64,000 nucleotides of DNA from Sulfurivirga caldicuralii. Its GTDB lineage: Bacteria > Pseudomonadota > Gammaproteobacteria > Thiomicrospirales > Thiomicrospiraceae. Of the stretch, positions 10,315 through 22,318 are shown piece after piece. The stretch lies in NCBI RefSeq assembly GCF_900141795.1, contig NZ_FSRE01000001.1, positions 186,001 to 250,000 on the forward strand. Reading direction: 5' to 3'. The position numbers were made by a program, and so were the translations under genes. The notes beneath the pieces were generated by a model. That model made no database searches and was not told the DNA's origin. It saw nothing but the letters and a program-made list of their open reading frames with translations. Positions within the stretch are counted from its first letter, which is position 1; each line of letters starts with the position of its first letter.

Positions 10315-10344
10315 TCCCCGACTTTTTTCGGGGATGATTTTTTC
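10315..10344 (+). terminator. Rho-independent terminator between convergent genes
   Basis: TCCCCGA and TCGGGGA pair around a T-rich loop, followed by TGATTTTTTC. It terminates apbC and slightly overlaps the 3' end of the convergent HybE-like gene. Confidence 0.75.
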
Positions 10345-10930
10345 AGCTGCGCCAGCGACGTAGAAAATCCCGTCTGGAGACGGCTTTGGCGTCGTTTTCG
10401 GCGTTTTCCAGTGCCTTTTTCTCTTTTTCTTCCTGTTCGGCAAGAATGCGTGCGTAGGTTTCCTGACGGAAACGGATTACCCCGGCCCACGCCTCGAAGG
10501 CGGCGGCATTGTCGGCATATTGGGCCATGGATTGCACCAGTGGCTGCAGGTAGTAGTGGCCCAGCTGCGGATGATAGTTGAGAAACGCCTGCAGGCGCTG
10601 GCCGCCGAATTCGAGCTGCTGCTGCGGACCAATGACCACATAGGGTTCCTTTTCCCGCTTTTCTGCCGTCCAGTCCGGGTCAAGTGGCCATTTGGGTGCC
10701 TGCAGCGGGATGTAGAGCTGCGCCAGCATCCACGGTGTGAGAACAAAGCCGGTGAGCCAGTCGTCGATGCGCTTGAGGCCGCGCACCTCCACCTTTAGGT
10801 TGGGATTCAGCCCCCAGCCGCCCAGCAGGGGATCATTGAAAGACTCGGCCTGAATGCTTTTGAAAGCAGCAACGATTTTTTGCTGCGCGTCCTGCAGGCT
10901 GTCGGCCTTAACGAGTTGCCAGTCACTCAT
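10343..10930 (-). CDS. HybE-like chaperone with C-terminal twin-arginine-like motif
   Basis: A 195-residue protein whose core matches the HybE family of [NiFe]-hydrogenase assembly chaperones: GFVLTPWMLAQLYIPLQAP near residue 60 and the LGHYYLQPLVQSMAQYADNAAAFEAW segment near 130-155. No hydrogenase is encoded here. It is the last gene of the molybdoenzyme operon and overlaps the TorD-like gene (ATGA). A charged Glu/Lys-rich helix (about 160-180) leads to SRRDFLRRW at residues 185-193, which fits the Tat consensus but sits at the wrong end for export. It may have a Tat-proofreading role for the catalytic subunit; this is inference. Confidence 0.65.
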   Translation of the reverse strand: MSDWQLVKADSLQDAQQKIVAAFKSIQAESFNDPLLGGWGLNPNLKVEVRGLKRIDDWLTGFVLTPWMLAQLYIPLQAPKWPLDPDWTAEKREKEPYVVIGPQQQLEFGGQRLQAFLNYHPQLGHYYLQPLVQSMAQYADNAAAFEAWAGVIRFRQETYARILAEQEEKEKKALENAENDAKAVSRRDFLRRWRS

Positions 10931-11466
10931 GCAAACAGCGCCTCCAGTCGCTTTGCCCAGTCGCGATACAGTTCCAGCTCGGCATGGATGCGCACTGCCT
11001 TGGCGAATTTAGGGATCCAGCCATGCAGGTGCTCCAGCAGTTCCACCAGCGTTTCTTCCTTGTCGGCGTGGTGGGTTAGAGCAAAGGCCAGGCACTCCAG
11101 TTCGCTGCCGAGGAAGTCGGCAGGCAACTCTGCGTCGGGAGTGAAGCCAAAGGCATCATAAAGGCGCTTAAGCGCCATGGCGCTTTCGCCGATCATCTGT
11201 CCTTCACGCCACACGGATTCAAATGGCACGCACTCGGTGTGCGGGCGACCACTGATAAACAGGCGCGTGTGTTCGGCCTGCCATTCTTCCAAGGGTGTCT
11301 CCCGCAGCTGTTCCAGCGCCGCATCACTCAGCCACGGCAATTGTGGCGCAATCTCTTCCAGCAGTGGCAGGGACTCTTCAGTGGGTTCGCCCAGCAATGA
11401 GGCGAGCAGGTGCAGCTCCTGCACGGTCTGGGTTCCATTCGAGGTGCTGTGTTCTTGATTTGTCAT
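10927..11466 (-). CDS. TorD/DmsD-family chaperone for the molybdoenzyme
   Basis: A 179-residue all-helical protein with the TorD-family core: EHTRLFISGRPHTECVPFESVWREGQMIGES near residue 65 and an FLGSELECLAFALTHHADKEE helix near 120. Members bind the Tat signal and apo form of molybdoenzymes until cofactor insertion is complete. The client is very likely the catalytic subunit at 13542-16340, the only Tat-signal molybdoenzyme in view. A gap of about 320 bases with a foldback repeat separates it from the anchor gene, so it may be transcribed separately. Confidence 0.85.
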   Translation of the reverse strand: MTNQEHSTSNGTQTVQELHLLASLLGEPTEESLPLLEEIAPQLPWLSDAALEQLRETPLEEWQAEHTRLFISGRPHTECVPFESVWREGQMIGESAMALKRLYDAFGFTPDAELPADFLGSELECLAFALTHHADKEETLVELLEHLHGWIPKFAKAVRIHAELELYRDWAKRLEALFA

Positions 11467-12757: not shown

Positions 12758-13531
12758 TTAAGCCTGATTCAGTGCAGCAAAGGGGCTGGCGGGGTCAAAG
12801 GGCCCAGCGGCTTCGGCATGCTGTTCGTCGCTGCGGGCAGGCACACCCTTGGGTCCCATGGGTTCAAGACCGCCTTCCTTGCCCATGCCGTCGAACTCAT
12901 GGCGTTCGAAGTGAATGGTCTGATGCTTCACCGGGATGTAGTACACGTTGGGCTTGGTACCCAGGTGCGGCATCAGCGGCTGCGCCTGACCGGACTTGAT
13001 CAGTTGGGTGACCGGATCGTTGGGATCGTCCAGATCGGCGAACATGCGGCTGTTGCCCACGCAGGTTTCCACACAGGCGGGCAGGCGCCCATCTTCCACG
13101 CGGTCGCGGCAGAAGTTGCACTTGTCCACCCCCGGGCGAGTTTTCTTCAGTGTTTCCTCGCCATACCACTCGCGCTTGGCGGTGTTGTCCTCGTAGTCGA
13201 TGGCGTAGCGTTCGTCATAGGGGCACGCCAGCGTACACGCCTGGCAGCCCATGCAGATCTCGTCGTCCACATCCACGATGCCGTTGTCCAGCTTGTAGGT
13301 GGCGCCGGTGGGGCAGACGGTGACGCAGGGCGGGTTGTCGCAGTGATTGCACAGGCGCGGGAAGAAGATGCGCATGGTGTCGCCATCGCTGTCGCCGCGG
13401 GTGAGGTCGTGCACCTTGGTGCGCCACTTGTTGTCCCAGAAGGGGGTCTGGTTTTCGATCGCACAGGCGGCCATGCAGGCGTTGCAGCCGGTGCAGGTGT
13501 TCAGGTCGATGACCATTGCGTAATGTGCCAT
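12758..13531 (-). CDS. Four-cluster iron-sulfur electron-transfer subunit (PsrB/TtrB/SoeB-like)
   Basis: A 257-residue protein with 16 cysteines in four ferredoxin-like motifs: CTGCNACMAAC (residues 13-23), CNHCDNPPCVTVCPTGA, CMGCQACTLACPY, and CNFCRDRV...CVETC. These hold four [4Fe-4S] clusters that wire the molybdenum subunit to the membrane anchor. There is no signal peptide, so it would be co-exported with the Tat-signalled catalytic subunit. The C-terminal 50 residues after the last motif are less conserved. Confidence 0.9.
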   Translation of the reverse strand: MAHYAMVIDLNTCTGCNACMAACAIENQTPFWDNKWRTKVHDLTRGDSDGDTMRIFFPRLCNHCDNPPCVTVCPTGATYKLDNGIVDVDDEICMGCQACTLACPYDERYAIDYEDNTAKREWYGEETLKKTRPGVDKCNFCRDRVEDGRLPACVETCVGNSRMFADLDDPNDPVTQLIKSGQAQPLMPHLGTKPNVYYIPVKHQTIHFERHEFDGMGKEGGLEPMGPKGVPARSDEQHAEAAGPFDPASPFAALNQA

Positions 13532-13541
13532 GATGCGCTCC

Positions 13542-16340
13542 TTATACCTTTTCCACGGTGACGGTGAACTCCTGCGAGCGGAAACCGCCCACCACCGGGT
13601 CGATCTTGTAGCCGATCACCTTGTTGATGGCGGAACCAAAGCCCGCGGCGCGGGTGAGCGCCTTGTTTTCGGTGCCGAAGGAGGAGTACATGAACAGTGT
13701 CTCCGGCTGCACGTTGCGGGTGACGTAGGCGTTGCCTTCCACCTGCAGGCTGTTGTCCTCGTTGTTGACGAGGCGGATACGGTCGCCGTTCTTGACCCCC
13801 AGCTTTGCCGCGCGGTCCGGATGGATCCAGATGCCGGTGTAGATGTCTTCCTTGAAGCTGTTGATGGCATACAGCACCGGGTTGTTGGCGTTGGTGGAGC
13901 CGTGGGATACCGTCGGTGACTTGCCGTAGGTGAAGAAGAACTCGTTGTCCTTCAGGCGGCGAGTGATCTGCTTGTTACCTTCCACGCCGGCCGGGAACCA
14001 CTTGGCGAGCACATGGAAGTTGGGCGCGCGGGTGCGTCCGTTGACACGCATGCTTTCATACAGGGTGGAGAAGAACTCCAGCCGCCCGCTGCCGGTGGGC
14101 ACAGGCATTTTTTCCGGCATGGCGCCTTCTTCAAGCAGTTCGTCCATGGTCTTGAAGTAGACCACGCCTTTTTCGCGCAACGCCTTTTCCAGTTCTTCCG
14201 GCGTCATGCCGTGTTTTTCGGCGGTCTTTTCAATGCTGAGCTTACGGTAGGCTTCGTGCCAGGGGGCATGACTGCCGGCCTTGACCATCTCTTCGTAGTA
14301 TTGCCAAGCCTTGTTGGCGTCCAGGCCCACCAGCTTGTCCACGGTTTCGATAAAGCGCTTTACGCCCTCCTTGCCATTGAGGATTTCGCTCATTTTTACC
14401 AGGATGTCGGTGACTTCCATGGTGTCGTAGATGGGGTCGATGGCGCGGAAGCGGGTAGTGACGCCCAGATCCTGGTTTACACCATTGCCGTAGGTGGCCG
14501 GCTCGTCCCGCTCCAGATAGGTGGAGTTGGGCAGGATGACATCGGCGTAGGCGCAGGTGTCCGCGGGCAGGACGTCGATGGCGATGACCAGCTCCACGTT
14601 TTCGTGGGCGAGCAGATCTTTCCAGCGATTGTCGGAGAAGTAGTGGTGCACGGGGTTGGCGCCATTGATGAGGAACGCCTTGGCCATGTACTTGCGGCCG
14701 TTGTACTCCAGCTCGCCGCGTACCGCTTCGGGCAGACCCACGTCGGTCATCACCGGCAGGCTGACCCAGTCGTCGTTGCCCTTGGCACGCTGCATGGCGC
14801 CATAGGCAAAGCCGCGGTCGGGCATGCCGTGGGAGAAGGTATTCGGGTTGCCAAACACATCCACCACCATCTGGGCAAACGGCATGGCGCCGATTTCGGC
14901 CAGCGGGTGCTCGATCTCTTCGCCTTTGGCCTGTTTTTCGTACATTTTCATGACTTTTTCGCGCACTTCGGCGCCGTTCACCCAGCCGCCCTTGCGGTCG
15001 ATACCCCCGATGAGCGCCTGCAGCTGTGCCTGCACGCGGCGCAGCATCTGAATGTTGTTGTAGCGTGCACCCATCCAGCCCGGGTCGATAATGGCCGGCT
15101 TGATATGGCTGAACTCCCATGCGATGCGCTCGATATCTTTGGCGGGAATGCCGGTGGATTTTGCCGCCCATTCCGGAGTGCAGAAGTCCACCTCTTCCAG
15201 TTGGGCTTCAAATACCGTCTTGGCCGGCTTGCCGTTGTGGGTCACGCCTTTGGGCAGGCGCAGCGCCGGATCAATGCGGTTGCCGTTGATGTCTTCGTCG
15301 TTGCGGTTGTGGAATGGTTTGACCGGACGCACTTCGGCGCGGATGGCGTCATACACCAGATAGTAGCCATCGGCATCCTTCACCAGTTGCCATTCGTTGT
15401 TGGCATCCTTTTCGATCAGGAAGGGCAGGTTGGTGTGCTTTTTACAGAACTCGGCGTCGTACCAGTCGTTGGCCATGATGGTGCGCATCATGGCGGTGGC
15501 GAAGTCTAGGTCGGTGCCGGGGCGGATGCGCACCCATTCGTCCGCCTTGGCGGCGGTTTCCGACAGGCGCGGATCCAGCACCACGATTTTTGCGCCACGC
15601 TGCTTGGCTTCGGCGGCGCGCACCACGCGCGGCGTAGAGACGGCACCCATGGAGCCGTTGTTGGCGATATACATGATGTATTTGGCGTTGTCGAAATCCG
15701 GCAGCACCTCATCGTGAATATTGAAGTTGCCGGTGACCGAGTCGGTACCCAGGTGACCGGTGGTCACGCAGTGCTGCATGGGGGAGGCGACGATATTGGG
15801 AATTTCGTTGCTGAGCACGAAAGAGACGGACCAGTTCATGTAGTACACGCAGTTGGTCCATCCGCCGACGACGGTCCATTCCCACGGCTTGATGCCTTTG
15901 GATTTTTTGGCGATATAGTCCCAGGCTTCGTCCCAGGTGGCCTTGCGGAATTTCCACTCGCCGCGCTTGCTGCCCTCGACGCGGATCAGGGGGGTCTTGA
16001 TGCGGTCCGGGTCGTAGGTCTGGAATACGCCGGACTGCCCACGGGCGCAGGCGCGACCGCGGTTGAGGGTGGAATAGGGGTTGCCCTCCAGCTTGACGAT
16101 GCGGCTGTGTTCACCATCTGTGAGCGTGCGCACTTCGATATTGCACAGGGACGAGCAGAAGTTGCAGATGGTGTGGTGAAACTCTTCTTTCAGCGTGCCG
16201 CGCTTCTTTTCCGGGAACATGAGGTCTTCCAGGCTGCTGGGCAGGTGCGCGCTGGCGGTGCCGGTCGCGGTGGCGGCGGCAGCGGCTGCAGTGCCCTTCA
16301 GAAAGGTGCGGCGGGTCAGTTTGGGAAAGCGCCAGGCCAT
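13542..16340 (-). CDS. Tat-exported molybdopterin oxidoreductase, PsrA/PhsA/TtrA-like catalytic subunit
   Basis: A 932-residue catalytic subunit of a complex-iron-sulfur molybdoenzyme acting on a sulfur compound; polysulfide, thiosulfate, tetrathionate or sulfite are possible. The Tat signal TRRTFLKG is at residues 9-16, followed by an Ala-rich stretch. An N-terminal [4Fe-4S] site reads CNFCSSLC with later Cys in GRACARGQSG. A candidate molybdenum-ligand Cys sits in SPMQHCVTTGH. Further cofactor-binding segments include VVLDPRLSETA and FTYGKSPTVSH. The ATG at 16340 was chosen because GGAGG lies just upstream and the Tat signal begins there. The signal argues against the cytoplasmic SoeA type. 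Confidence 0.85.
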   Translation of the reverse strand: MAWRFPKLTRRTFLKGTAAAAAATATGTASAHLPSSLEDLMFPEKKRGTLKEEFHHTICNFCSSLCNIEVRTLTDGEHSRIVKLEGNPYSTLNRGRACARGQSGVFQTYDPDRIKTPLIRVEGSKRGEWKFRKATWDEAWDYIAKKSKGIKPWEWTVVGGWTNCVYYMNWSVSFVLSNEIPNIVASPMQHCVTTGHLGTDSVTGNFNIHDEVLPDFDNAKYIMYIANNGSMGAVSTPRVVRAAEAKQRGAKIVVLDPRLSETAAKADEWVRIRPGTDLDFATAMMRTIMANDWYDAEFCKKHTNLPFLIEKDANNEWQLVKDADGYYLVYDAIRAEVRPVKPFHNRNDEDINGNRIDPALRLPKGVTHNGKPAKTVFEAQLEEVDFCTPEWAAKSTGIPAKDIERIAWEFSHIKPAIIDPGWMGARYNNIQMLRRVQAQLQALIGGIDRKGGWVNGAEVREKVMKMYEKQAKGEEIEHPLAEIGAMPFAQMVVDVFGNPNTFSHGMPDRGFAYGAMQRAKGNDDWVSLPVMTDVGLPEAVRGELEYNGRKYMAKAFLINGANPVHHYFSDNRWKDLLAHENVELVIAIDVLPADTCAYADVILPNSTYLERDEPATYGNGVNQDLGVTTRFRAIDPIYDTMEVTDILVKMSEILNGKEGVKRFIETVDKLVGLDANKAWQYYEEMVKAGSHAPWHEAYRKLSIEKTAEKHGMTPEELEKALREKGVVYFKTMDELLEEGAMPEKMPVPTGSGRLEFFSTLYESMRVNGRTRAPNFHVLAKWFPAGVEGNKQITRRLKDNEFFFTYGKSPTVSHGSTNANNPVLYAINSFKEDIYTGIWIHPDRAAKLGVKNGDRIRLVNNEDNSLQVEGNAYVTRNVQPETLFMYSSFGTENKALTRAAGFGSAINKVIGYKIDPVVGGFRSQEFTVTVEKV

Positions 16341-16573: not shown

Positions 16574-17533
16574 ATGCCTTATAGAGCCGACCATCTCGTC
16601 CGCCACGCCACCCTGCGTCAGCTGCAGGTATTTGTCGCCATCGCCCGCGAGGGCAGTTTTTCCAAGGCCGCCGAGCGGCTTCACCTGACCCAGCCCACTG
16701 TTTCCATGCAGGTGAAGAAACTGTCGGAAGCGGTGGGGGAGCCGCTGTTCGAGCAGATTGGCCGCAAGGTTTATCTCACCGAGGTGGGGCGCATCATGCT
16801 CGAGGCGGCGGAGTCCATCCTGGATCAGCTGGCGCTGGCGGAAGAAAGGGTGAATGAACTGCGCGGGGTCGCAGGTGGTACGGTGCGTCTGTCTGTAGTG
16901 TCCACGGCGCAGTATTTCGTGCCGGAGGTGATTCACGCCTTTCTGGAAGAGTATCCGGATGTGAATGTAGTCATGGAGGTGGGCAACCGTGAAACGCTGC
17001 TGGCGCGCATTCAGCAGAACGTGGATGACTTCTACATTCTTGGCCAGCCGCCGGAAGGTCTTCGCGTGGAAAGCCATCTGCTGGCCAACAACCCGCTGGC
17101 TGTGGTGGCGCACCGGGATAATCCGCTGGCGCAGACAAAAAAGCGAATCAGGCTGGAAGCACTGGCGGAAGCCCCCTTTCTGATGCGGGAGAAGGGGTCG
17201 GGTATTCGCAAGCAGGTGGAGCATGTTTTCCGTGAGCATGGCTTTGAGCCCAATGTGAAGATGGTGTTGGGGGGCAACGAGGCCATTCGTCTCGGCTTGC
17301 GGGAAAACCTAGGTGTTACCGTGGCCTCGCTGCCGACCCTGATCGACGAGATCGAGTCCGGCGAAATCGTGGTGCTGGATGTGCAGGGTTTTCCGGTCAT
17401 GCGTCACTGGTATCTGGCGTGGCCGGAAGGCAAGGCCATTTCTTTGGCTAGCCGCCTGCTGATCGAACGCATGCAGCTGGCCGCCGCCGGTCTGGATGAA
17501 CAGATCGGGCGTCTGCTGAAGCATAGTGGATAA
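16574..17533 (+). CDS. cbbR: LysR-type regulator of RuBisCO genes
   Basis: A 319-residue LysR-family protein. The N-terminal winged helix-turn-helix (about 13-72) contains RQLQVFVAIAREGSFSKAA and LTQPTVSMQVKKLSEAVGE. The effector-binding domain follows (GGTVRLSVVSTAQYFVPEV near 100). Sequence style and its position directly upstream of cbbM identify it as CbbR, which senses Calvin-cycle metabolites or NADPH in studied relatives. It is unusual in pointing the same way as its neighbour operon rather than divergently. Likely targets are the shared motifs before cbbM, dabB and cbbL. Confidence 0.88.
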   Translation: MPYRADHLVRHATLRQLQVFVAIAREGSFSKAAERLHLTQPTVSMQVKKLSEAVGEPLFEQIGRKVYLTEVGRIMLEAAESILDQLALAEERVNELRGVAGGTVRLSVVSTAQYFVPEVIHAFLEEYPDVNVVMEVGNRETLLARIQQNVDDFYILGQPPEGLRVESHLLANNPLAVVAHRDNPLAQTKKRIRLEALAEAPFLMREKGSGIRKQVEHVFREHGFEPNVKMVLGGNEAIRLGLRENLGVTVASLPTLIDEIESGEIVVLDVQGFPVMRHWYLAWPEGKAISLASRLLIERMQLAAAGLDEQIGRLLKHSG

Positions 17534-17551
17534 AAAATGCTTTTCAGAAAA

Positions 17552-17589
17552 ATATTAGATGATCATGAAATATATAGAGGATCGCCTTA
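17552..17589 (+). promoter_or_regulatory. Candidate CbbR binding region upstream of cbbM
   Basis: Two overlapping elements are seen. A 22-base dyad at 17552-17573 pairs ATATT-AGATGA with TCATGA-AATAT, with two mismatched positions. TATAG-N8-CTTA lies at 17573-17589, starting 39 bases before the -35 box. The same TATAG-N8-CT pattern occurs at the dabB and cbbL promoters. The position, about -74 to -58 from the predicted start, is where LysR regulators bind. Confidence 0.5.
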
Positions 17590-17611
17590 AACACGCATAA
17601 TTTATATTGAT

Positions 17612-17640
17612 TTGTCATGGTCGGAGCCGCCCCATAGAAT
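17612..17640 (+). promoter_or_regulatory. Candidate cbbM promoter
   Basis: TTGTCA and TAGAAT are separated by exactly 17 bases. Transcription would start near 17647, giving a leader of about 54 bases. The -10 box lies inside the left arm of the 61-base inverted repeat. Confidence 0.6.
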
Positions 17641-17691
17641 AGTTTTTGCACACTCGGGTGATGTCCCGAAGATCTGTAAAAACACTATGGG
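17631..17691 (+). repeat. 61-bp nested inverted repeat in the cbbM promoter/leader
   Basis: Outer arms CCCATAG / CTATGGG (17631-17637 / 17685-17691), middle arms GTTTTTGC / GTAAAAAC (17642-17649 / 17676-17683, one mismatch) and inner arms TCGGG / CCCGA (17654-17658 / 17665-17669) share one centre. The right outer arm overlaps the ribosome-binding site GGGAG just before the cbbM ATG. Confidence 0.7.
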
Positions 17692-17700
17692 AGTTCCAAC

Positions 17701-19101
17701 ATGGATCAGTCCAATCGCTATGCCAATCTGGATCTGAAAGAAGAAGATCTCATTAACGGCGGTCGCCACATGCTGGTGGCCTACCGCATGAAGCCGGCAC
17801 CCGGCTACGGCTTCCTGGAAGTGGCTGCGCACATCGCTGCCGAGTCTTCCACTGGTACCAACGTAGAGGTTTCCACTACCGACGACTTTACCCGTGGTGT
17901 GGATGCGCTGGTTTACGAAATCGACGAAACCGCGTTCGGTGATCAGGGTGGTCTGCTCAAGATCGCTTACCCGGTTGAGCTGTTCGACCACAACCTGATC
18001 GACGACAAGCACCCTGTGTCCCACATGTGGTCGCTGGTGCTGGGCAACAACCAGGGTATGGGCGACCACCTGGGTCTGCGCATGCTGGACTTCTACCTGC
18101 CGGAAGTGATGGTCAGAAACTTCGACGGTCCTGCCACCAACATTGAAGACATGTGGCGCGTACTGGGTCGTCCCACCAAGGATGGCGGTTACATCGCCGG
18201 TACCATCATCAAGCCGAAGCTGGGTCTGCGTCCCGAGCCGTTCGCAAAAGCCTGTTACGACTTCTGGCTGGGCGGTACCTTCATCAAGAACGACGAGCCG
18301 CAAGCCAACCAGACCTTCGCGCCCATGAAGAAGGTTATCCCTCTGGTTGCGGAAGCCATGGATCGTGCTCAGCAGGAGACTGGCGAGGCCAAGCTGTTCT
18401 CTGCCAACATCACTGCCGACTTCTTCGGCGAAATGATTGCTCGTGGCGAATACATCCTGAACGAATTCGCCAAGTACGGCAACGAAGACCATGTGGCCTT
18501 CCTGGTGGACGGTTTCGTAACCGGTCCAGCAGGTGTTGCGACAGCACGTCACTACTTCCCGAAAACCTTCCTGCACTTTCACCGGGCGGGTCACGGCGCG
18601 CTGACCTCCTACAAGAGCCCCATGGGCATGGATCCGCTGTGCTACATGAAGCTGGCTCGCCTGCAGGGTGCGTCCGGTATTCATACTGGCACCATGGGCT
18701 ACGGCAAGATGGAAGGTCACTCAGACGAGCGCGTACTGGCCTACATGCTGGAGCGTGACGAGTGTCAGGGTCCGTACTTCTATCAGAAGTGGTACGGCAT
18801 GAAGGCGACCACTCCGATCATCTCCGGCGGCATGAACGCACTGCGTCTGATCGGCTTCTTCGAGAACCTGGGTCACGCCAACGTGATCAACACCTGTGGT
18901 GGTGGCTCTTTCGGTCACATCGATGGTCCGGCCGCTGGCGGCAAGTCCCTCGATCAGGCCTACCAGTGCTGGAAGGAAGGCGCCGATCCGATCGAATTCG
19001 CGAAAGAACACAAGGAGTTCGCGCGCGCATTCGAATCCTTCCCGTGGGATGCCGACAAGCTGTTCCCGGGCTGGCGCGAAAAACTGGGCGTTCACAAGTA
19101 A
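17701..19101 (+). CDS. cbbM: Form II ribulose bisphosphate carboxylase
   Basis: Fixes CO2 on ribulose bisphosphate; form II works as a dimer of large subunits without small subunits, with low CO2/O2 specificity. The 466-residue length is normal. Catalytic motifs are present: [12 protein letters not shown] (active-site Lys near 166), [11 protein letters not shown] (carbamylated Lys near 192), HRAGHGA (His near 297), and the loop 6 region [11 protein letters not shown]. It is outside the carboxysome operon and accompanied by its own activase genes cbbQ and cbbO. It is likely used when CO2 is plentiful. Confidence 0.98.
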
Positions 19102-19124
19102 GATTGGCCGCCTGAGAATCAAAG

Positions 19125-19151
19125 CCCTGGCCCCTGTGGCCGGGGTTTTTT
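19125..19151 (+). terminator. Rho-independent terminator after cbbM
   Basis: CCCTGGCC pairs with GGCCGGGG (one G-T pair) around CCTGT and is followed by six T. Read-through would be needed to express cbbQ from the cbbM promoter, which may keep the activase low relative to the enzyme. Confidence 0.8.
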
Positions 19152-19244
19152 ACCCCTTTATACCTGACTTAAATACTCGGAAATATTTCCAGAACCCTAT
19201 TTTGGAAATCTTTTCGATTCATTCGCATATGCAGGAGACACACC

Positions 19245-20060
19245 ATGTCATTTGATATCAATCAGTACAAGATCGAATCCGAGCCGTTCTATCAGGCGCA
19301 GGGTAATGAAGTCGAGCGCTACCAGGCGGCCTATGCCGCTCGCCTGCCGGTAATGGTGAAAGGCCCCACCGGCTGCGGTAAATCACGTTTTGTGGAACAC
19401 ATGGCGTGGAAGCTGGGCAAGCCGCTGATCACCGTCTCCTGTAACGAAGACATTACCGCCGCCGACCTGGTGGGCCGTTTTCTTTTGGACGCCAGTGGCA
19501 CCCGCTGGGTGGACGGTCCGCTGACGCTGGCGGCGCGTTACGGTGCCATTTGCTATCTGGACGAGATTGTGGAAGCCCGTCAGGACACCATGGTGGTGAT
19601 CCATGCCCTGACCGACCATCGCCGCGAGCTGCCGCTGGACAAGAAGGGTGAAGTGGTCAAGGCGCACCCGGACTTTCAGCTGGTGATCTCATACAACCCG
19701 GGCTACCAGAGCGTGATGAAAGACCTGAAACAGTCCACCAAGCAGCGCTTTACCGCCATGGAGTTTGACTACCCCACGCCGGAGCTGGAAACCCAGGTGG
19801 TGGCAAAGGAAACCGGCATTGACGAACACACTGCCGCCAAGCTGGTGGAGGTGGCCAATGCGGCGCGCAAGCTCAAGGGTCACGGTCTGGACGAAGGCAT
19901 TTCCACCCGTCTGGTGGTCTATGCCGGTATTCTGATCAAGCAGGGCATGCCCGCGGCTGAAGCGGCGGAAATGGCAATGGTGACACCCATTACCGACGAC
20001 GCTGAGGTGCGCGAAAGCCTGCTGCATACGATTGAACTGGTATTGGGTGAAGCAGCCTGA
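19245..20060 (+). CDS. cbbQ: RuBisCO activase AAA+ subunit CbbQ
   Basis: A 271-residue MoxR-family AAA+ ATPase that, with CbbO, removes inhibitory sugar phosphates from RuBisCO. Walker A is GPTGCGKS (residues 40-47). Walker B is in AICYLDEIVEA, near residue 105. A sensor 1 region reads FQLVISYNPGY. The family also includes NorQ and NirQ; the RuBisCO role follows from its place directly after cbbM. A ribosome-binding site (GCAGGAGA) precedes the ATG. There are 11 bases before cbbO, so the pair is co-translated. Confidence 0.95.
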   Translation: MSFDINQYKIESEPFYQAQGNEVERYQAAYAARLPVMVKGPTGCGKSRFVEHMAWKLGKPLITVSCNEDITAADLVGRFLLDASGTRWVDGPLTLAARYGAICYLDEIVEARQDTMVVIHALTDHRRELPLDKKGEVVKAHPDFQLVISYNPGYQSVMKDLKQSTKQRFTAMEFDYPTPELETQVVAKETGIDEHTAAKLVEVANAARKLKGHGLDEGISTRLVVYAGILIKQGMPAAEAAEMAMVTPITDDAEVRESLLHTIELVLGEAA

Positions 20061-20071
20061 GCGAGCGAATC

Positions 20072-22318
20072 ATGACCGATTATCACGCGCAATTTACCTG
20101 CGGTTTTCAGTCGGCGAAGGATCTGTTTGCGGATGCCCTGAATGCCATGCAGGGGGTCTGTCCGGATACAGTCTGCATCGAAGCCTTTATCGATCGGGCC
20201 AATTTCCTCTGCAAGATCGGTCTGGGCGCCGAGCCGGTGCTGACCTTCATGGATGTGATGCCGGAGGTGGTGAAACGCTATGGCGCCGAGACCATCGAGC
20301 GGGTGGCGCGCTTTGCCTACGAAATGGGCCGCAGTCCCAATAAAAAGGCGGTGGTGCCGTTTCTGCAGTCGCTGCTGGCGCTGGCGCACCGGGTGGAAAG
20401 CCCCGATGGGCTCGAACGTTATCTGGAGATGTTGGCCGATTTCATCAAGCGCACCGAAATCGTGGTGCATGGCCATCAGTCCCTCTACCCCAGCAAGGGG
20501 CTGGTGCCGTTGCTGGAAAACATGCCGCTGCTGCTCAGGCAGTTGAGTCTGGAAGGGGTGCGCGCGTTTATGGACTATGGGGTGCGCGCCTACAACCACA
20601 ACCCGGATCACCAGCAGGAATACTTTGAGCTGAAGACGCCGGACAGCCTGGCCATGCTGCGCCGTCAGCGCGAGGGCACGCTGTTTGTGGACGTGGAGCG
20701 GCAACTGGGCGTGCTGGCTGCCGGCCTGTGGGACTGCGAACTGCCGTTGCGCACCTTTACCGTGGATCCGGAGCTGCCCAGTTATCAGGCACCCTTTTTT
20801 GACCGGGATAATGAGGTCATTGGCATGCCCGATTTTGTGGCCCCTGCGCGCGGATTGAGCGGGCTGCAGATCTATCGGGCACAGATCGCCCACCTGATGG
20901 CCCACTTCAAATGGAGCCAGCCCATGATCGGCGACAACATGTCGCCGCCGGCGCGCTTCTTTACTGAGGTATTCGAAGACTGTCGCGTGGACCGGCTGGC
21001 CATGCAGCGTTTTCCCGGTCTGGAGCGCTATTTTCTGGCGCTGCATCCGGTGCCGCCGCTGGGCGCCTGCAACGAGGCGGAGCAATCCTGTCTGCGTTAT
21101 CGTGCCGCCCGTCTCTCCCGAGCGCTGATGGATCCCGATTTCGACCCGGAAGACGAGATCATTGAGGTCTTTCGTGACCGCTTCAATGCGCTGATGGTCG
21201 AGAAGGGCGAGGCGCTGACGCTGGCAGACATGAAGGAACTGGGCACGGCCTATTATGTGAAGACGCGGGCGCAGACCGATGACAAGGGCGGTGACATGTT
21301 CTATGAGGACACCGAAGTCCTCTATCGGGATGACAACCGCTACCTGTGGATCTACATCGACGACAGTGGTGAGGAAGATATCTTCGATCACGCCCCGGAT
21401 AACGAGGATGAAACGCCGCAGGGGCTGCCGCCGCGCTATTACGACGAGTGGGACTATTCCATGAACGACTATCGTCCGGAATGGGTCACCCTCTACGAGC
21501 GTCTGCACCCCCAGGAAAGTCCGGCCAAGATTGACAACATGCTGGCGCGCCACGAACTGCTGATCAAGCAGCTTAAGAAGATGGTGGAGGCCATCAAGCC
21601 GCAGGATAAGCGCCGCATTCGCTACCAGGAAGAAGGGGCCGAACTGGATCTGGATATCGCCATCCGCGCCATGATCGACATCAAGGCGGGGCTCAATCCC
21701 GATCCGCGCATTCTTTATGACACCGTGACCGACAATCGTTCCATGGCGGTGCTGCTGCTGGTGGATCTGTCCCAGTCGCTGAATAACACCCTGCCGGGCA
21801 CCGGCCGCACGCTGCTGGAGCTGGCGGAAGAGGCGCTGGCGATTATGAGCTACACGGTGGAACTGCTGGGGGATCGCTTCGCCATCGCTGGCTTCCATTC
21901 TGACACCCGTCATCGCGTGCTTTACCACCACATCAAGGGTTTCACCGAGCATTGGGACGATACGGTCAAGGGCCGCCTTTCGGCCCTGGAAGCGGCCTTT
22001 TCCACCCGCATGGGCGCGGCGATTCGTCACGCCACACACTACCTGAGTCATCAGCCGGCGGAGAAAAAGCTGCTCTTGGTGCTCACCGACGGGGAGCCGG
22101 CGGACATCGATGTGAAGGACCCGGAATACCTGATCGAAGATGCGCACATGGCGGTGGCGGAAGCCCATCAGCAGGGCATCTTTAGTCATTGCGTCAATAT
22201 AGATCCCAATGGGGACGACTACGTTAAGCGCATCTTTGGCGGGCATTACACCATCATCGATCATGTAGAGCGTCTGCCGGAGCGGTTGCCACAGGTGTTT
22301 CTGAATCTGACCAGGTAA
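20072..22318 (+). CDS. cbbO: RuBisCO activase adaptor CbbO with VWA domain
   Basis: The 748-residue partner of CbbQ that recognises RuBisCO. A large helical N-terminal region is followed by an acidic segment near 425-450 (DDSGEEDIFDHAPDNEDE) and a C-terminal von Willebrand A domain. The domain has an intact metal-ion-dependent adhesion site: DLSQS near residue 567 and TDGEP near 672. A metal-bound VWA domain docks CbbO on RuBisCO in studied systems. The length fits CbbO proteins. No second cbbQO pair lies beside cbbLS, so one pair may serve both enzymes. Confidence 0.93.
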   Translation: MTDYHAQFTCGFQSAKDLFADALNAMQGVCPDTVCIEAFIDRANFLCKIGLGAEPVLTFMDVMPEVVKRYGAETIERVARFAYEMGRSPNKKAVVPFLQSLLALAHRVESPDGLERYLEMLADFIKRTEIVVHGHQSLYPSKGLVPLLENMPLLLRQLSLEGVRAFMDYGVRAYNHNPDHQQEYFELKTPDSLAMLRRQREGTLFVDVERQLGVLAAGLWDCELPLRTFTVDPELPSYQAPFFDRDNEVIGMPDFVAPARGLSGLQIYRAQIAHLMAHFKWSQPMIGDNMSPPARFFTEVFEDCRVDRLAMQRFPGLERYFLALHPVPPLGACNEAEQSCLRYRAARLSRALMDPDFDPEDEIIEVFRDRFNALMVEKGEALTLADMKELGTAYYVKTRAQTDDKGGDMFYEDTEVLYRDDNRYLWIYIDDSGEEDIFDHAPDNEDETPQGLPPRYYDEWDYSMNDYRPEWVTLYERLHPQESPAKIDNMLARHELLIKQLKKMVEAIKPQDKRRIRYQEEGAELDLDIAIRAMIDIKAGLNPDPRILYDTVTDNRSMAVLLLVDLSQSLNNTLPGTGRTLLELAEEALAIMSYTVELLGDRFAIAGFHSDTRHRVLYHHIKGFTEHWDDTVKGRLSALEAAFSTRMGAAIRHATHYLSHQPAEKKLLLVLTDGEPADIDVKDPEYLIEDAHMAVAEAHQQGIFSHCVNIDPNGDDYVKRIFGGHYTIIDHVERLPERLPQVFLNLTR

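Follow-up and report, generated by a model that had tools for sequence, protein, structure and literature searches.

The locus analysed here raises two questions: which enzyme is served by a HybE-type chaperone in a genome that encodes no hydrogenase, and why such a chaperone bears at its C-terminus a look-alike of the twin-arginine (Tat) export motif. The window, a 64,000 nt stretch of Sulfurivirga caldicuralii DNA, carries an open reading frame which an earlier note had read as a HybE-like chaperone gene within a molybdoenzyme operon, and both the frame and the operon around it are present (Table 1). The 195-residue product is matched by the PF11939 profile with 72 bits against a curated cut-off of 25, the match extending to residue 191, inside the C-terminal tail. 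PF11939 is the only family matched at E 0.01, with no match to PF02613 (TorD/NarJ) or PF11748 (DUF3306) in the protein, nor to PF11748 anywhere in the genome. The predicted model, with a mean pLDDT of 81.2 from an alignment of seven sequences, has E. coli HybE (2kc5) as its sole Foldseek match at E ≤ 0.001 (4.6e-4), 126 residues aligning with Z 9.7 and rmsd 3.5; the related HybE of locus L101, predicted from its sequence alone without an alignment, reached a pLDDT of 48.7. The source genome, which is 99.99% complete, holds one PF11939 gene, the closest named HybE being 58% identical, and one TatC gene.

The profile for the hydrogenase assembly chaperone HybE, TIGR03993, gave 38.6 bits with the window protein against a cut-off of 78.5, and the NiFe large subunit profile PF00374 had no match in the whole of the source genome, as the claim that no hydrogenase is encoded had anticipated. 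Judged by the TIGR03993 cut-off and by its client, the window protein is not a hydrogenase chaperone. The operon, on the minus strand from 16340 to 10343, encodes in order the molybdenum enzyme, the FeS subunit, NrfD, TorD and HybE. By profile, fold and tail the last gene encodes a HybE-family protein, and its client is very probably the Tat-exported Psr/Phs-like molybdoenzyme of the same operon.

Table 1. Features of the HybE-linked molybdoenzyme operon in the window, by position.
Feature	Position	Strand	Evidence
HybE-family (PF11939) chaperone gene, 195 aa, final gene of operon	10343..10930	(-)	PF11939 72 bits, E 6.4e-20; fold match to 2kc5
C-terminal twin-arginine tail SRRDFLRRW, residues 185-193, then only RS and stop	10352..10378	(-)	sequence
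TorD/DmsD-like chaperone (PF02613), 179 aa; stop overlaps HybE start (ATGA)	10927..11466	(-)	PF02613 79.4 bits; sequence
NrfD/PsrC-like membrane subunit, 318 aa	11790..12746	(-)	PF03916 101.8 bits
4Fe-4S electron-transfer subunit (PsrB/DsrO-like), 257 aa, without Tat signal	12758..13531	(-)	PF13247 73.9 bits
Molybdopterin oxidoreductase (Psr/Phs-like catalytic subunit), 932 aa from MAW start, Tat signal	13542..16340	(-)	PF00384, PF01568, PF04879, TAT_signal PF10518
Tat signal start MAWRFPKLTRRTFLKG of client, n-region MxWxFPxxTRR	16293..16340	(-)	n-region pattern across HybE-linked loci

The closest solved relative of the molybdenum subunit is the thiosulfate/polysulfide reductase 2vpw (214 bits), and the subunit scored 327.9 with the thiosulfate reductase profile PhsA NF012032, under its cut-off of 694; these profile searches took 13542-16337, without the initial Met. 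The 4Fe-4S subunit scored 182.4 bits with NF045797 (DsrO), under the cut-off of 200. Divergent to the operon, at 16574-22318, lies a LysR-type regulator identified by Pfam, together with what we take to be a form II RuBisCO-like gene and a CbbQ/CbbO-like pair. The Tat signal of the client has an unusual beginning. The pattern M-x-W-x-[FY]-P-x-x-[TS]-R-R-x-[FLIM] is found at 23 of 26 HybE-linked client loci, the window excluded, the three misses being two loci on truncated contigs and one with L for F. The nine-residue n-region MxWxFPxxT ahead of the arginine pair is almost invariant between the class of the window and other classes of the phylum, which is unusual for a signal peptide. By their sequences, the next relatives of the enzyme found in the class appear mostly to be without a Tat signal: no Tat motif was read by script in 24 such loci, a count in which L187 was misread and the frames are uncertain at other loci, L179 and L200 among them. 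L187 has a Tat signal after all, MLKLTRRTFLKA, in which the WxFP stretch is missing, and no PF11939 match is listed for its genome. Tat export alone therefore does not require HybE; the enzyme family with the MxWxFP n-region does.

The distribution of the two genes identifies the client. A PF11939 gene occurs in 17 of the 62 genomes of the order and the Psr/Phs-like molybdoenzyme in 10, exactly the 10, window included, that have an operonic Mo-type HybE. In nine of these no hydrogenase exceeds the family cut-off, and one (G055) has a hydrogenase elsewhere in its genome. The remaining seven HybE genomes all have a NiFe hydrogenase, which in six shares the HybE contig at a distance of up to about 6 kb and in G016 is on another contig. 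In a sample of the class the enzyme was found in 6 of 369 genomes, HybE adjoining it in five (the window among them); the sixth is uninformative because its 4,542-base contig stops before the HybE position. HybE adjoins the enzyme in all 10 genomes of the order that have it, so that the Tat-signal molybdoenzyme of the operon is almost certainly the client, as had been proposed. With Alphaproteobacteria added, 28 distinct loci besides the window (31 rows, three being repeats of one place) have same-strand TorD and HybE genes plus NrfD and FeS genes, the molybdenum gene being seen in 26, and TorD lies directly upstream of HybE in all 28. In a tree built without the tail in the alignment and rooted at its midpoint only, the 29 Mo-linked HybEs are set apart from all others by a single branch, of SH-aLRT 97. 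From the sequences, the HybE chaperone type appears to have moved once to a molybdoenzyme, the direction from hydrogenase to molybdoenzyme being suggested by the broader distribution of hydrogenase-type members. A conserved CxWQ stands ahead of the tail, as in CEWQQEVSRREFF, in most Mo-type HybEs of the more distant kind (L085-L086, L100-L102, L138-L148).

The second question concerns the tail. The window protein had been described as ending in SRRDFLRRW; the motif is indeed at the C-terminus, while its W is not the last residue, the chain closing with SRRDFLRRWRS and the frame with AVSRRDFLRRWRS-stop. SRRDFL does not qualify as a Tat export signal, its arginines being residues 186-187 of 195 with no long hydrophobic stretch after them, and because no hydrophobic region stands behind it the tail is not exportable by itself. 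Its likeness to a Tat motif is borne out by relatives, far beyond chance. An RRx[FLMIV] tail is present in 112 of 119 intact PF11939 proteins, 104 of a first 110 chosen regardless of tail and 8 of 9 from a later reading of 10 further listed genes, the tenth (G050) being frame-broken and uncounted. Within the last 40 residues, this loose pattern occurs in 104/110 family proteins, 57/943 control ORFs and a mean of 13.8/110 shuffled tails, and the strict pattern [STDNG]RRx-phi-phi in 101/110, 2/943 and 0.78/110, respectively. A chance arginine pair in one arginine-rich C-terminus might be expected where basic tails are common, as in high-GC genomes, and the loose pattern does turn up in control ORFs; the strict counts and the rank of both arginines among the most conserved positions over the 110 proteins (P66 98%, R187 96%, R186 95%, W67 94%) refute this explanation, to which we give practically no weight.

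Named members of the family carry the tail as well. The E. coli HybE tail reads GRRALLFGRR, that of a HybE-annotated protein of Cupriavidus necator H16 pHG1 DRRGFLFGRR, and that of a HybE-annotated protein of Rhizobium leguminosarum NRRDLLRG; we take the latter two, both called HybE in their records, to be HoxT and HupJ. No other protein in the annotated E. coli, C. necator and R. leguminosarum stretches matches RRx-phi-phi. Sorted by setting, the tail is present in 38/39 hydrogenase-labelled proteins (a label resting on phmmer matches at E 1e-5, which may take in hydrogenase-like accessory neighbours), 28/29 Mo-linked, 7/7 ThiG-linked, 2/2 NnrS-linked and 29/29 unlabelled proteins, most of the last seen with only 1.5 kb of flank, and in 0/4 of a group that we call Halomonad-type, a name which is a guess. 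The exceptions comprise KR in L010, loss of the tail in L094 and five Halomonad-type orphans (L087, L136, L137, L156, L203), the one protein of the later reading without the pair, G802, being of this type. By these counts the C-terminal twin-arginine is a family-wide trait, peculiar neither to the window gene nor to the company of TorD, and a motif confined to the window protein was rejected. No description of the tail was found in the titles and passages searched, and the HybE passages of papers that name HybE along with twin-arginine and C-terminal do not mention one.

Several relatives lie in other surroundings. HybE-like paralogues with an SRR tail occur in other classes of the phylum (L145, L151-L155, L157), forming one clade of seven; the gene directly beside them is presumably ThiS-ThiG-like, the neighbours having been read in five of the seven loci, and some genomes with such a paralogue also carry a Mo-type copy. 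HybE-like genes at L089 (9944-10498) and L090 have the tail SRRDLFRGLLGRR; no hydrogenase or molybdoenzyme was found next to either, and the multi-membrane-span protein beside that of L089 looks NnrS-like, in our estimation. Four of the tail-less Halomonad-type orphans make up a long-branched clade in the tree, and L087 adjoins a glutaredoxin-like gene and CoA-transferase-like genes. In L034 and L210 (G050), an intact gene for the hydrogenase large subunit is accompanied, at a distance of about 5 kb, by a frame-broken hybE whose SRRKLF tail can still be read in another frame.

A tail so widely kept need not be concerned with Tat recognition. It is basic and hydrophobic and could serve as a handle by which some other conserved partner is bound or, through its basic-aromatic end, the membrane, and the ThiS-ThiG-linked and NnrS-linked orphans, which retain it with no Tat client next door, agree with such a role and count against docking at TatBC. 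A role of charge alone, however, would need neither the arginine pair nor its preceding residue. Over 110 tails a looser dibasic pattern is RR in 102, KR in 3, RK in 2 and absent in 3, whereas Arg makes up 62% and Lys 38% of the remaining basic residues in the tails, and the residue before RR is S or T in 82 of 104. We consider such a handle improbable.

The earlier note had suggested that the tail imitates the signal of the client and competes for the TorD-like chaperone of the operon or for TatC, and had named as a check a survey of homologues for the tail together with TorD-type genes. The invariable place of TorD directly upstream of the Mo-type HybEs favours the TorD form of this model, but the survey does not support a link to TorD: 21 of 28 genomes with a hydrogenase-type HybE are without any PF02613 match at E 0.01, among them 20 whose HybE is intact and tailed. 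Competition for TorD therefore cannot be the general role of the tail, and TorD was rejected as its general partner. According to PMC3316669, what TorD and DmsD recognise in a signal is its H and C regions, both missing from the tail; the arginine pair has little weight for them and is essential for TatC. The lure is thus a highly improbable account of the tail and is unlikely as its ancestral role. A resemblance to DUF3306 proteins of formate dehydrogenase clusters, also put forward, holds to the extent that both have F[FL]xRW next to basic residues. The likeness is weak, the DUF3306 motif being N-terminal and before the basic pair, with strict FLxRW in 4/16; kinship was rejected, given the opposite terminus, the reversed order and the absence of a PF11748 match. 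Many, not all, of the 16 DUF3306 proteins (L161-L176) start with an F[FL]xRWSxRK-like motif. The two observations named beforehand as counting against the note's reading, loss of the motif in close homologues and a hydrogenase elsewhere in the genome, were not made: the tail is kept and the hydrogenase absent, so that the reading is not refuted by them.

The closest rival to docking at TatBC, ranked second, places the reader of the arginine pair in HybE itself. The tail would be a pseudo-substrate that occupies the signal-binding site of the chaperone, either in cis or within a swapped dimer, and is displaced by the real signal. Signal binding is the role reported for HybE in PMC4273604, which makes its own site the simplest reader of RR. 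The core TPW motif is as universal as the tail (P 98%, W 94% and T 91% of 110 proteins), and family proteins differ greatly in how far the tail lies from the fold. Against this, the tail in the predicted model (pLDDT near 67) terminates a long helix and is not folded back; the alignment to the solved HybE ends at chain residue 129 and shows no docked tail. A cis-docked tail in the model was accordingly rejected, and we regard self-capping as doubtful.

The best explanation as a whole, to which we assign a probability of roughly 0.4, is that HybE is dedicated to the Psr/Phs-like molybdenum client and that its tail docks in a reader of arginine pairs, most likely TatBC. Keeping RR over Lys and lacking an H region, the tail is better suited to a reader of RR such as TatC than to a groove of the TorD type. 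Its retention beside hydrogenase, molybdoenzyme and orphan genes alike also counts for TatBC. The model, on the other hand, reveals no docking site for the tail, and the position +2 from the second arginine is more commonly L (54) than F (32) in 104 tails, unlike the S/TRRxFLK consensus. Covariation of the tail with the signal of its own client was not detected in 25 pairs, 1895 of 5000 shuffles being as good under a rough null for which L085 used an upstream RR instead of the TRRAFL of its signal and the tails of L086, L088 and L091 were shown at a shifted, R-rich match; a tail evolving with its own client's signal was rejected on this result. Docking at TatBC, taken as the role of the tail on its own, is put forward tentatively, as less likely than not.

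By analogy with the family, HybE would bind the Tat signal of the molybdenum subunit in the cytoplasm, reading the fixed n-region and the arginine pair, while TorD may assist cofactor insertion. The SRRxFL tail would then dock in the arginine-pair reader, most likely the TatBC signal site, the least certain of the steps; the loaded chaperone might wait at the translocase through its docked tail, and the real client signal would displace the tail at hand-off. According to published work, the Tat signal of HybO is bound by E. coli HybE (PMC4273604), small-subunit synthesis involves HupGHIJ or homologues, HoxT being named only in a reference title (PMC3534401), and how a signal peptide passes from its chaperone to the Tat receptor is described as unknown, coordinated hand-off and free diffusion being the options (PMC8428690). 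Counting against docking at TatBC, no affinity for Tat translocons was detected with TorD, which belongs to another chaperone family (PMC8428690). The most far-reaching form of the proposal, in which a non-exportable copy of the Tat motif is the TatBC docking key of hand-off chaperones and the module passed intact, in a single event, from hydrogenases to a molybdoenzyme of the sulfur type, is possible but rather unlikely.

The point of interest is an old family trait. Its retention by nearly all relatives examined, the classic hydrogenase helpers included, suggests a common stage in the delivery of mature enzymes to the export apparatus. Since one entire chaperone family, with E. coli HybE among its members, has a near-invariant Tat motif at the C-terminus, the role of the motif can be probed directly by mutation in a standard strain. 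The Mo-linked clade also suggests that a chaperone of the hydrogenase type, together with its tail, was recruited to serve metalloenzymes of a different class, and for annotators the label 'hybE' is no ground for inferring a hydrogenase.

Compared with known systems, the client shares its complex of molybdenum, 4Fe-4S and NrfD-type subunits with the Psr/Phs polysulfide and thiosulfate reductases and remains below the NCBIfam PhsA cut-off; SoeABC is likewise a complex of this composition. NapD-type signal chaperones, of a family different from HybE, are also small second chaperones for a Tat molybdoenzyme. TorD, DmsD and NarJ (PF02613) resemble the window protein as operon-encoded chaperones of a Tat molybdoenzyme but are an unrelated family by Pfam, and the window operon encodes a TorD-like protein besides HybE. 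In the excerpt seen of a survey of NarJ-family chaperones, nrfD-hybA-bisC operons are described with DmsD or TorD and no HybE is mentioned in them (PMC4464133). DUF3306 (PF11748) shares F[FL]xRW near basic residues, with its motif at the other terminus and in reversed order. The HybE/HoxT/HupJ hydrogenase chaperones (PF11939, TIGR03993; 2kc5) are alike in fold, TPW core, C-terminal twin-arginine tail and Tat-signal client, whereas the window protein has a molybdoenzyme as client, falls below the TIGR03993 cut-off in a genome without hydrogenase, and belongs to a separate clade.
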